64,000 bases of DNA from Sulfuricurvum sp. (GTDB taxonomy: Bacteria > Campylobacterota > Campylobacteria > Campylobacterales > Sulfurimonadaceae): positions 62,001-126,000 of the forward strand of contig DYMK01000001.1 in assembly GCA_020721585.1 (NCBI GenBank), in the 5' to 3' direction. Positions 33,058-37,060 of this stretch are shown one piece after another. The number at the start of each line of letters is the position of its first letter. Within the stretch, counting starts at the first letter, position 1. Under the pieces are notes generated by a model, which did not search any database, had not been told where the DNA came from, and saw only the letters and a list, made by a program, of their open reading frames with translations. A program made the translations under genes and the position numbers.

Positions 33058-33327
33058 ATGCCAACGATTAGTATGTTCTATGGAATTGTTATAATGATGT
33101 TTTTTCGAGACAATCAACAGCATCATCTCCCTCATATACACGTTAGATATCAGGATACCAAAGCGGTTATTGGCATACCTGATGCAGAATTAATTGAGGG
33201 TTCATTGCCGAAAAAACAGATGAGAATGGTTCAAGCGTGGATCGAAATACATTGTGATGAACTGATGGCAGATTGGGATTTAGCAATTGAGGGTGAACAA
33301 ATTTATAAAATTGATCCCTTGAGATAG
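33058..33327 (+). CDS. DUF4160 protein
   Basis: 89 residues. The start TISMFYGIVIMMFFRD followed by HHLPHIHVRYQDTKA and WIEIHCDELMADW is the DUF4160 signature. AAAGGA upstream. Such genes typically sit next to DUF2442 genes, as here, and the pair is often listed as a putative toxin-antitoxin module without firm proof. It lies between two core genes. Confidence 0.82.
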   Translation: MPTISMFYGIVIMMFFRDNQQHHLPHIHVRYQDTKAVIGIPDAELIEGSLPKKQMRMVQAWIEIHCDELMADWDLAIEGEQIYKIDPLR

Positions 33328-33338
33328 GTGGATGACTA

Positions 33339-33581
33339 ATGGTGCTTGATGTCATAGAATTTAACTACCTCAATGACTATAAACTTTTACTCACGTTTGA
33401 AAATGGGGAGAAAAAAGAGTTTGATTGCGCACTTTTACTGGATAAAAAACCTTTTCACGTTTTTAACGATACCAATTATTTTAAAAAAGCCAAAGTTGAA
33501 TATGGGACATTGGTTTGGCCAAACGAAATAGACATAGCCCCTGAAACCCTCTATTTTTGTTCTACTCCGTGGAATCATTAA
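33339..33581 (+). CDS. DUF2442 protein
   Basis: 80 residues: V-x4-FNYLNDYKLLLTFENGEKKEFD and WPNEIDIAPETLYF match DUF2442. Possible partner of the DUF4160 protein 12 bases upstream. The stop codon overlaps the maf start (TAATG). Role unknown. Confidence 0.82.
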   Translation: MVLDVIEFNYLNDYKLLLTFENGEKKEFDCALLLDKKPFHVFNDTNYFKKAKVEYGTLVWPNEIDIAPETLYFCSTPWNH

Positions 33582-34246
33582 TGCTCCGTCTTTGCTCCTC
33601 CTCCCTTACCCGCGCCCAGCTTTTGACCGCTGCTGGTATCCCCTTTTTTCAAGAGTCGATCGATTTTGATGAAGATGCCATTATTGCCTCCTCTCCCAAA
33701 AATTTCGTCTACCAAGCGACATTGGGAAAATATCGGGTTAATTTAGCCCATTTTGGGTGCAGTGACTACCCCCTTCTGGTCGCCGATACAGTCGTCACCG
33801 CACAGGGAAAAATACTGCGAAAAGCCAAAGACGAAGCCGATGCACGCGCGATTTTAGCAACCCAAAGCGGCTGTGAAGTGACAATCTTGACCTGTATGAT
33901 CTACAAAACCCCCTCGTTGGAAGTAATGGACATCTCCTCAACCCACTATTTTTTTAACCCGTTTGATCCTGAGGATGTGGATCGGTATATCACCAGTGGT
34001 GAGTGGCGTGGGAAAGCGGGTGCGTGCATGGTGGAGGGATTTTGCCAACCCTATATCCGTGAAACGAAAGGGTTTGAGAGTACTGCGATGGGGTTAAATG
34101 TGGAAGTGTTGAAACCATTTTTGGTCAAAATTCCTAATGACACAACCATCAAAGCGATGCAAGAAGCCAAAGATGGGATTAATAGGGAATCGGTTACGAT
34201 GGATGCGTTAAAAGTTGAATGGGAAAAAAATAAAAAGGGGTATTAA
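33581..34246 (+). CDS. maf: Maf-like nucleotide pyrophosphatase
   Basis: 221 residues. CSSSLTRAQLLTAAGI replaces the usual ASxSPRRxELL, with the reactive region ADTVVTAQGKIL and the C-terminal GKAGACMVEGFCQPYIRET. Hydrolyses non-canonical or canonical NTPs, linked to division arrest in other bacteria. Starts in the stop codon of the DUF2442 gene. Confidence 0.85.
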   Translation: MLRLCSSSLTRAQLLTAAGIPFFQESIDFDEDAIIASSPKNFVYQATLGKYRVNLAHFGCSDYPLLVADTVVTAQGKILRKAKDEADARAILATQSGCEVTILTCMIYKTPSLEVMDISSTHYFFNPFDPEDVDRYITSGEWRGKAGACMVEGFCQPYIRETKGFESTAMGLNVEVLKPFLVKIPNDTTIKAMQEAKDGINRESVTMDALKVEWEKNKKGY

Positions 34247-34247
34247 A

Positions 34248-35324
34248 ATGAAAAATTATAAAATATCCGCTGTTGATTTGTTTTGTGGAATTGGTGGACT
34301 CTCTTATGGTCTCAAAAAAGCAGGGATTGAGGTAAAGGCAGGGATTGATTTTGAAAATTCTTGTAAATACGCGTTTGAAACGAATTGTGATGCTACCTTT
34401 ATTCATCAAGATATTACTAAAGTAAAAAGTGAGCAAATAGCAGCATTTTATGATGAAGATGATGTTAAGGTTTTGTTAGGTTGCGCACCATGCCAACCTT
34501 TTTCTACCTATACCCTTAATGGGGATAAGCAAAACGATAACCGTTGGCGGTTATTGTATGAATTCGCACGGTTAATTAAAGAAGTGCAACCTGAGATCGT
34601 TTCAATGGAAAATGTCCCCAATCTACTGAATTTCAAAAAAGAGCCTGTATTTGAAAACTTTGTGAATGAATTGAAAAAAGATGGTTATTTTGTGTGGCAT
34701 AAAATCGTTTATTCCCCCGATTATGGTATCCCACAAAAGCGAAAACGATTGGTTTTATTAGCGTCTAAAAAAGGAAAAATTGCCTTAATTGATCCAACCC
34801 ATACACCTGATACGTATGTGACCGTTAAAGATGCGATTGGTCATTTAGAACCAATTGCCTCTGGTGAAACTTCAAAAAGTGATTTTATCCATAAAGCTTC
34901 CAAGCTATCAGATAAAAATATTCAAAGGATTAAACAATCCACGCAAGGTGGAAGCTGGAAACGGGATTGGGATGAGCATTTAAAGCTGGATTGCCATAAA
35001 AGTGATAGTGGCAAAAGTTACGGTAGTGTATATGGTCGTATGCGATGGGATGAACCATCACCCACTATGACCACTTTTTGTACAGGCATTGGGAATGGAC
35101 GATTTGGACATCCTGAACAAAATCGGGCTATATCGTTGCGTGAAGCTGGAATTTTACAAAGTTTTCCTGCCCATTATAAATTCACTGATAAAGAGGAAAA
35201 TCTTAAATTTACCCATATTTCCAAACAAATTGGTAATGCAGTACCTCCAAGATTAGGCGAAGTGATAGGATTGAGCATTATTAAACACTTAGAGGAGATG
35301 GGTTATGGCAAAGATAAAAAGTAA
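34248..35324 (+). CDS. DNA (cytosine-5) methyltransferase
   Basis: 358 residues. Motif I AVDLFCGIGGLSYG, motif IV with catalytic Cys82 (APCQPFS), motif VI MENVPNL (E121), motif VIII QKRKRLVLLA, target region near GRMRWDEPSPTMTTF, motif X QIGNAVPPRL. Complete and probably active; target sequence unknown. First gene of a block that is more AT-rich than its neighbours. It overlaps the DUF262 gene by 20 bases. No classical restriction endonuclease is adjacent. Confidence 0.93.
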   Translation: MKNYKISAVDLFCGIGGLSYGLKKAGIEVKAGIDFENSCKYAFETNCDATFIHQDITKVKSEQIAAFYDEDDVKVLLGCAPCQPFSTYTLNGDKQNDNRWRLLYEFARLIKEVQPEIVSMENVPNLLNFKKEPVFENFVNELKKDGYFVWHKIVYSPDYGIPQKRKRLVLLASKKGKIALIDPTHTPDTYVTVKDAIGHLEPIASGETSKSDFIHKASKLSDKNIQRIKQSTQGGSWKRDWDEHLKLDCHKSDSGKSYGSVYGRMRWDEPSPTMTTFCTGIGNGRFGHPEQNRAISLREAGILQSFPAHYKFTDKEENLKFTHISKQIGNAVPPRLGEVIGLSIIKHLEEMGYGKDKK

Positions 35325-36387
35325 ATTTACGGAAGAAGAATTAGAGCAGATACAAGAGCAAATAAGTGAAGAGTCTGGCTTATACGATTATATGTCTAAA
35401 GATTATCCTTTTGAAGTCATTGAATCAAAATTTGGAGAACAAGATGATGAAAAGGCAACCCTTTATGTTCCTGAATATCAAAGAGAATTTGTTTGGGATC
35501 CAAAAAAGCAATCAAGATTTATTGAATCTGTTTTGTTGGGCGTTCCACTAACTCCTTTTTTGGTCTCTGAAGATGAAAATGGAAGATTAGAAATTATTGA
35601 TGGTTCTCAAAGAATTAGAACATTAATAGCATTTCATGAAGATAAATTACGCTTAAGAGGCTTAGATAAACTTGATAAAATTAATGGTGCAAAATTCAAA
35701 GATTTGCCCAAAAAAGCACAAAATTATTTTAAAAATAGAGATTTTAAAATAATTATTACTGATGAATCAGAAAAAGAAGTTAAACAAGATATATTTAATA
35801 GGATAAATACAAGTAGTGAGTCTTTAACTGATAGTGAAATACGAAAAGGTGCTTATGCTGGTAAGTTTTATACAATGATTCTTAAGTTAAAAGATGACGA
35901 AGCATTTAAAACCATTTGTCCTGTTTCAGATACTAAAGAAAAAAGGGGAGAATACGAGGAGTTGATTTTAAGATTTTTTGCATATGTTAATAAGTATCAA
36001 GAATTTAAACACGATGTAGCAAATTTTTTAAATAATTATCTTGATGAAATGAATGAGCAAGAATATGACGAAGAAGCATATTTAAAAGTTTTCAATGATA
36101 TGGTAATTTTTGTAACTAATAATTTTCCTCTTGGCTTTAGAAAAGACAGTACGAATAACTCAATTCCACGGGTAAGGTTTGAAGCAATATCCGTAGGCGT
36201 TCATTTAGCACTACAAGAAAATCCATCTTTGGCAAATCCTAATATGGATTGGTTAGATTCTGATGGGTTTAAAATCCAAACTACCTCTGATGCAAGTAAT
36301 AATCCTAATCGATTACGAAATAGAATAGAGTTTGTAAGAGATGGTTTATTGGGGCGATTAACACCTGATAGGTTGGCAAATGGTTAA
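35305..36387 (+). CDS. DUF262 (ParB/GmrS-like) protein
   Basis: 360 residues. DUF262 domain: VPEYQREFVWD at 55-65 and DGSQR at 99-103, the ParB-like NTP-binding/nuclease motifs of GmrSD and SspE-type proteins. The usual second HNH (DUF1524) domain is absent; the C-terminal half is helical with no motif I know. A GGAG site precedes the start inside the methyltransferase gene, and the end overlaps the HEPN gene by 8 bases. Tight overlaps mean the three proteins are made together. Role in modification-dependent defence is inferred. Confidence 0.8.
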   Translation: MAKIKSKFTEEELEQIQEQISEESGLYDYMSKDYPFEVIESKFGEQDDEKATLYVPEYQREFVWDPKKQSRFIESVLLGVPLTPFLVSEDENGRLEIIDGSQRIRTLIAFHEDKLRLRGLDKLDKINGAKFKDLPKKAQNYFKNRDFKIIITDESEKEVKQDIFNRINTSSESLTDSEIRKGAYAGKFYTMILKLKDDEAFKTICPVSDTKEKRGEYEELILRFFAYVNKYQEFKHDVANFLNNYLDEMNEQEYDEEAYLKVFNDMVIFVTNNFPLGFRKDSTNNSIPRVRFEAISVGVHLALQENPSLANPNMDWLDSDGFKIQTTSDASNNPNRLRNRIEFVRDGLLGRLTPDRLANG

Positions 36388-37060
36388 TACAAAAAGTGAT
36401 TTTGAAGTTAGAAAAAAAGAAATTGAAAATTACTTTTCGTTTTTAGAAATATTAGATAAAGATGAAACCGTTTTAAAGTATGTCAAAAATGGGAAAATTA
36501 CCGAAGAAGAAATATCAAAAGATATTCAACGAATATTAATAGCTAACTCATTTTTAATTCTTTACAATCTTATTGAGTCTACCGTGCGAAATTCGATTCT
36601 TGCTATTTATGAAAAAATAAAAGAAGATGAAGTCAATTACACGGTACTATCGTCTAATTTGAAAAAAATTTGGTTGCAGAAAAAAACGAAAAATTTGAAT
36701 AAGAGTAATTTAGAAGAGATTATAAAAAGTGTTGTTGAAAATGAAATAATAGCATTAACCCAAGATGATATAAATATTTCTGGCAATATTGATGCTGAAA
36801 AAATAAGAGGATTAGCCAAAGAAATAGGATTTGAAAAATCAAATAATGAAAGAAATGGTCAAAATTTAGTAACGATTAAAAATAAACGAAATGGACTGGC
36901 TCACGGGAATCATACTTTTTATGATGTTGGTAAAGATTATACAGTGAATGATATAAATAGATATAAACAAGAAACTTTTGAGTATTTATCGGAGGTGATT
37001 ACTAATATAGAAATTTTCATAACAACAAAAAAATATACGGTTAACCCAATCAATTCATGA
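36380..37060 (+). CDS. HEPN-domain protein (MAE_28990-like)
   Basis: 226 residues, all-helical. N-terminal helix with SFLILYNLIESTVRNSI, and the HEPN ribonuclease motif Rx4H as RNGLAH at 170-175. This matches the MAE_28990/MAE_18760 HEPN families named in surveys of bacterial conflict systems. A metal-independent RNase is expected. Last gene of the methyltransferase-DUF262-HEPN operon; its stop overlaps the start of the next enzyme gene by 4 bases, so the insertion joins the core gene precisely. Confidence 0.8.
   Translation: MVNTKSDFEVRKKEIENYFSFLEILDKDETVLKYVKNGKITEEEISKDIQRILIANSFLILYNLIESTVRNSILAIYEKIKEDEVNYTVLSSNLKKIWLQKKTKNLNKSNLEEIIKSVVENEIIALTQDDINISGNIDAEKIRGLAKEIGFEKSNNERNGQNLVTIKNKRNGLAHGNHTFYDVGKDYTVNDINRYKQETFEYLSEVITNIEIFITTKKYTVNPINS

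Follow-up and report, generated by a model that had tools for sequence, protein, structure and literature searches.

The window analysed here is a stretch of 64,000 nucleotides from a Sulfuricurvum sp. genome of 2.29 Mb in 112 contigs. Between maf and bioF it carries three intact genes on the + strand. The first, M, encodes a C5-cytosine DNA methyltransferase of 358 aa (34248..35324; PF00145, 3.3e-66), the second, D, a DUF262-only protein of 360 aa (35305..36387; PF03235 GmrSD_N/DUF262, 2.9e-28), and the third, H, a HEPN RNase-fold protein of the MAE_28990 family of 226 aa (36380..37060; PF18737, 6.3e-27). The M and D reading frames overlap by 20 bases, and those of D and H by 8 bases. Coordinates and Pfam matches agree with the first-pass annotation, which had described three overlapping genes, and the residues that it singled out (C82, DGSQR at 99-103, R170 and H175) are present at these positions.

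The genomic context identifies M-D-H as a horizontally acquired insert, based on the empty maf/bioF junction of a same-genus relative (L213) and the low GC content of D-H. The relative has the order alaS, membrane protein, maf, bioF, no M-D-H, and maf and bioF overlapping directly through an ATGA junction, which is the junction that M-D-H occupies in the window. The inserted segment (34185..37056) coincides with a drop in GC content, with 28-32% across D-H vs 44-49% in the flanks. At its left side maf ends at 34246 and M begins 2 bases later (34248); at its right side the last 4 bases of H are shared with bioF, which starts at 37057. The insert deletes the native stop of maf and Maf gains a foreign C-terminal tail of about 40 residues (KIPNDTTIKAMQEAKDGINRESVTMDALKVEWEKNKKGY, window 34185-34246), where Maf relatives terminate in EVLKPFLA. 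A resemblance of this tail to the end of a small antitoxin was considered and set aside, as Pfam gave no match. Between the membrane-protein gene and maf lies a DUF4160/DUF2442 pair resembling the DhiT/DhiA toxin-antitoxin (window 33058-33581); it is missing from L213 and thus represents a second insert beside M-D-H. The same genome also encodes a second, more distant DUF262 protein, outside the window (G000:C33:9854-10819, minus strand, E 1e-41).

M contains all motifs of PF00145, as expected of the cognate DNA methyltransferase of a type II restriction-modification system. Its catalytic C82 is part of a PCQ motif that is kept in 77/77 M relatives, and the PADLOC models DrmMII (5e-100) and MTase_II (5e-99) both match. 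The family to which M belongs also includes methyltransferases linked to DISARM, to Druantia and to a GHKL-ATPase protein. Mean identity among the Ms is 54% in the target-recognition region (about residues 175-290) vs 50% in the catalytic part, and a single target-recognition cluster takes in 72 of the 77. The recognition region is as conserved as the catalytic part, which suggests that the M relatives share a target sequence that another factor also reads. M is a plausible candidate for the marker of self DNA that the first-pass annotation had proposed.

The N-terminal part of D (about residues 30-171) is a ParB/Srx (sulfiredoxin)-like NTP-binding domain, and in the AlphaFold2 model (mean pLDDT 89.4) the remainder of the protein consists of helices only. 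Residues 30-171 of the model match ParB CTPases (7bnr, Z 8.8, rmsd 2.6 over 94 residues) as well as the N-domains of BrxU and SspE; full-length alignments with the latter two gave an rmsd of 9-11 A, and the likeness is taken for the N-domain only. As the first-pass annotation had it, D is a DUF262 protein without DUF1524: Pfam gave no match to this HNH domain in D. In an alignment of 90 relatives, histidine exceeds 42% in no column, so that no conserved His-Me-finger site is hidden in D. The residues P56, Y58, R60, W64, E96, D99, G100, Q102 and R103 are invariant in 90 diverse representatives, and so are E219, R223, E293 and R340 of the helical C-terminal region, which may hold a DNase site of an unrecognised kind. 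Among the PADLOC models, D matches NsnA over nearly its full length (PDLC03877, 7.9e-58), its best match, and also PD-T4-2_A (PDLC04027, 1.9e-39), a model that matches 39/39 relatives. A weak resemblance to REase_II (PDLC03418, 8.9e-15) covers the DUF262 part, and no DNase domain was recognised in D or H. A role of D as a sensor is plausible, and no nuclease domain is recognisable in it.

H scores 95.6 bits against PF18737, for which the gathering cut-off is 26.8. The Rx4H HEPN motif that had been read from the letters (R170-x4-H175) is borne out by its conservation, with R170 and H175 invariant in 90/90 representatives; Y62, E66, G135 and G176 are invariant as well. The best structural matches of the AlphaFold2 model of H (mean pLDDT 94.4) are HEPN toxins (VIA; 7ae6, Z 9.9, rmsd 4.2 over 144 residues); Csm6, AbiV and RnlA rank lower. 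With Foldseek on its own nothing significant was returned for H, and a sequence search of the PDB returned no relative. Judged by its conserved residues, the HEPN RNase active site of H is complete, and RNase activity is predicted.

The first-pass annotation would have been refuted if the three genes rarely co-occurred in other genomes, but this is not the case. A scan anchored on D, with each species represented by one genome, found M, D and H together in 74 of the best 80 loci, and the corresponding scan of viral loci yielded the trio in 75 of the best 80, near-copies occurring among the latter; these fractions apply to the closer relatives of D and not to all DUF262 proteins. When the scan was anchored on H, the full trio was present in 34/36 loci and the remaining 2 were interrupted by contig ends. 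The independent D-anchored and H-anchored scans rule out a chance neighbourhood. D and H were adjacent throughout, the exceptions being a D truncated at the end of its contig and another with only 209 bases of downstream sequence. M either precedes the pair on its strand or follows it, in the latter case mostly in convergent orientation. Among 26 distant same-phylum DUF262 relatives (L186-L211), this M was found in 0/26 within ~1.5 kb on each side, and a HEPN protein was found by model in one (L192). A search for a fourth essential component gave no gene shared by more than 20/89 loci; the most frequent extra genes are an XRE/S24 regulator (20), a second C5 methyltransferase (10) and Vsr (6).

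Genome loci with the trio come from twelve phyla, and plasmids, phages and prophages carry it too. The closest relatives of D among the best 80 loci of the D-anchored scan belong to Campylobacterales MAGs (72-74% identity). In E. coli P2-like prophages (for example in NZ_CP059907.1 and NZ_CP147056.1), and also in phage P2_4B2, the trio is located between the portal and replication-endonuclease genes, a slot that is a phage-defence hotspot (Vassallo et al., 2022; PMC9519451).

D and H are an obligate unit, and their distances correlate (Mantel r 0.76, 0/1000 permutations), whereas the distances of M correlate weakly with those of D and H (0.14 and 0.16, respectively). A strictly co-inherited trio was rejected, as M tracks D and H weakly. 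In an M-anchored scan of viral loci, D-H lies beside M in 46 of the best 80, and in 21 of these 80 the neighbour is a GHKL-ATPase protein of about 650 aa, which PADLOC classes as a type II restriction enzyme (REase_II, PDLC03419). The latter arrangement is found in L298 (3995-7524) and in 20 more loci among L281-L349. The remaining neighbours of M in this set of 80 include DISARM DrmD, Druantia DruF and a DRT-type NERD-helicase protein. Placing the D-H and GHKL labels on a quick, and hence approximate, tree of M requires 10 parsimony changes, at least 5 of which are forced by starred branches. The exchange is also visible at one prophage site: L103 and L131, which carry D-H, and L298, which carries the GHKL enzyme, have the same flanks with a different effector between them, their Ms are 87% and 78% identical, and a regulator (S24/XRE) is shared on the other side. 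The GHKL-ATPase type II restriction-modification pairs thus have a methyltransferase of the same family (up to 87% identical) and use the same prophage site, but have one ATPase/restriction protein as effector where the trio has D-H. Since D-H and the GHKL enzyme replace each other at this site, D-H probably fills the restriction slot beside M.

Outside the main arrangement, D-H is accompanied by methyltransferases of other classes: N6_Mtase/Eco57I (L184), N6_N4 (L189, L192), Eco57I/MmeI-like (L055, L102) and divergent C5 (L061, L147, L020). In L055 (691-4818) and L102 (1143-4886) the pair is directly beside an Eco57I/MmeI-like methyltransferase of 1250-1376 aa, and in L055 a 1328-aa protein of unassigned family follows downstream. 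In L192 (712-3879) an N6/N4 methyltransferase and a DUF262-HEPN pair share the locus with an ICEA/REase_II-like restriction enzyme; this possible restriction-modification system would have one arm that cuts DNA and another that cuts RNA. D-H pairs without a recognisable methyltransferase nearby are found in L011 and L175, in L142, with a YhcG nuclease, and in L087 (2491-6840), where the primase-helicase of a TOTE conflict system lies directly upstream of D-H. Pairs of this kind imply that D can function in the absence of M, or together with one located elsewhere.

The set of genes itself was already noted in 2013. Anantharaman et al. (2013; PMC3710099) list in their Table 1 the MAE_28990 HEPN as active and in an operon with a ParB nuclease and a DNA methylase, which are the same three parts, likewise in an operon, as in M-D-H. 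The table entry gives no order, specificity, distribution or mechanism for the trio, and assumes the ParB-like protein to be a nuclease. The first-pass annotation had put forward M-D-H as a set for which it knew of no characterised system; in view of this table entry the set was not unknown, and a tested relative exists as well, as the DUF262 + HEPN pair PD-T4-2, without a methyltransferase, protects E. coli from T4 in the native strain and in K-12 (PMC9519451, PMC10952713). In the literature, of which part was covered, we found no experiment on the M-D-H family, and for DUF262 + HEPN the 2013 study and a review. What our analysis adds to the earlier table is how widely the set is distributed, D-H as a unit, the conservation of the target-recognition region of M and the natural swapping of D-H for a restriction enzyme.

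Several characterized systems resemble parts of M-D-H. PD-T4-2 shares the DUF262 + HEPN pair, with D matching its component A, but as described it lacks the methyltransferase. Neither H nor the H of L008 matches PD-T4-2_B (PDLC04028), which has no match in the source genome either, and membership of M-D-H in PD-T4-2 was rejected as H does not match component B. The best PADLOC match of D, NsnA, is the same kind of DUF262-only protein; it belongs to Nsn (NsnA/NsnB), which we take to be Menshen. The Menshen effector is the AAA/OLD-like NsnB, in a system without a methyltransferase, whereas that of M-D-H is a HEPN protein. NsnB was seen beside one relative of D (L206), but it is absent here, the neighbours of D being M, H, maf and bioF, and membership in Menshen was likewise rejected. 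GmrSD, BrxU and SspE share with D the DUF262 NTP-binding domain with DGxQR; in contrast to D, they have a DUF1524 HNH nuclease, and they sense modified or phosphorothioated DNA. A functional analogue has been proposed in EcoprrI-PrrC, where a modification enzyme and a HEPN RNase occur in one locus, but in that case a complete type I restriction-modification system is present alongside the RNase, which forms a fusion with an ABC NTPase. H is a stand-alone HEPN protein, without the fusion to an ABC NTPase that characterizes PrrC and RloC.

We consider it probable, with moderate confidence, that M-D-H is a restriction-modification-like defence module, acquired horizontally, with an RNase as the likely effector. 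M would methylate one sequence in host DNA and so mark self, and D, through its ParB/SspE/BrxU-like NTP-binding domain, would probably recognise unmethylated copies of that sequence on DNA entering the cell. An NTP-driven change in D would then activate H, which, as the first-pass annotation had also suggested, would cleave RNA; this would stop the multiplication of the phage, probably with arrest or death of the cell. In a more specific form, which we offer tentatively and rate as slightly less than evenly balanced, the ParB-like NTPase D would engage one unmethylated sequence, perhaps as a sliding clamp, and switch on the HEPN RNase, and D-H would exchange with classical restriction enzymes as partners of the same methyltransferase. 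The restriction arm of such a restriction-modification system might then be an RNase, with the identity of DNA read out as the destruction of RNA; this part of the same reading is just as tentative. Among the points that count against this reading are that M is not tightly co-inherited with D-H, that some D-H pairs occur without a recognisable methyltransferase nearby, and that the invariant C-terminal residues of D may form a DNase site.

The first-pass annotation had proposed that D senses either unmodified or modified DNA. A role as sensor is plausible, but from the gene neighbourhoods unmodified sites are much more likely to be what is sensed than modified DNA, as D-H occurs beside several methyltransferase classes and swaps with a restriction enzyme beside the same methyltransferase. 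T4 DNA carries modified cytosine, and the action of PD-T4-2 on this phage also fits sensing of modified DNA in the wider clade.

The main rival explanation, although an unlikely one, is that D is itself a restriction DNase and H a second-line suicide RNase that the complex keeps inactive and that is released upon failure of restriction, comparable to PrrC in EcoprrI. The same logic was proposed in 2013 for HEPN proteins linked to restriction-modification operons, in a study whose table names the partner a ParB nuclease (Anantharaman et al., 2013; PMC3710099), and L192, with its methyltransferase, D-H and ICEA/REase_II-like enzyme, would be in line with it. However, Pfam finds only the NTPase-type DUF262 in D, and the all-helical remainder, the lack of a conserved histidine and the lack of DUF1524 all argue against a DNase. 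Nor does any further nuclease family recur beside most trios, Vsr being present in 6/89.

More doubtful still is a selfish addiction module, in which D would be the antitoxin for H, or M would protect against D-H, so that cells losing the genes would be killed, and defence would be a by-product. In its favour, the genes of D and H overlap and are obligately paired, a toxin fold is present, plasmids and prophages often carry the pair, and the folds nearest to H are HEPN toxins with partner antitoxins. A plain toxin-antitoxin system would nevertheless not account for a methyltransferase being present in most cases, for the conservation of its recognition region or for the swap of D-H with a restriction enzyme, and the E. 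coli copies occupy a slot that is used for defence genes. Restriction-modification systems also addict their hosts, and the two readings overlap to that extent.

The least probable reading, which we regard as very unlikely, is a type IV-like system in which the target of D would be modified cytosine in phage DNA, with M either incidental or the marker of a decoy: the DUF262 proteins GmrSD and BrxU do act on modified cytosine, the DUF262 protein of Dazbog may recognise methylated DNA, and the DUF262 + HEPN system PD-T4-2 acts on T4 (PMC10952713, PMC9519451), but a host would then be modifying its own DNA while carrying a sensor for methylated cytosine, the class of methyltransferase varies with the D-H subfamily, and D-H substitutes for the enzyme of an ordinary restriction-modification pair.

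The existence of E. coli prophage and plasmid copies, together with the natural swap between D-H and a restriction enzyme, makes the function of the module directly testable. If the restriction-modification-like reading is correct, the gene set noted in 2013 would be a widespread defence system, present in at least twelve phyla, in which the logic of restriction-modification ends in RNA cleavage. The three DUF262-only systems, M-D-H, PD-T4-2 and Menshen, would then represent one sensor with exchangeable effectors.
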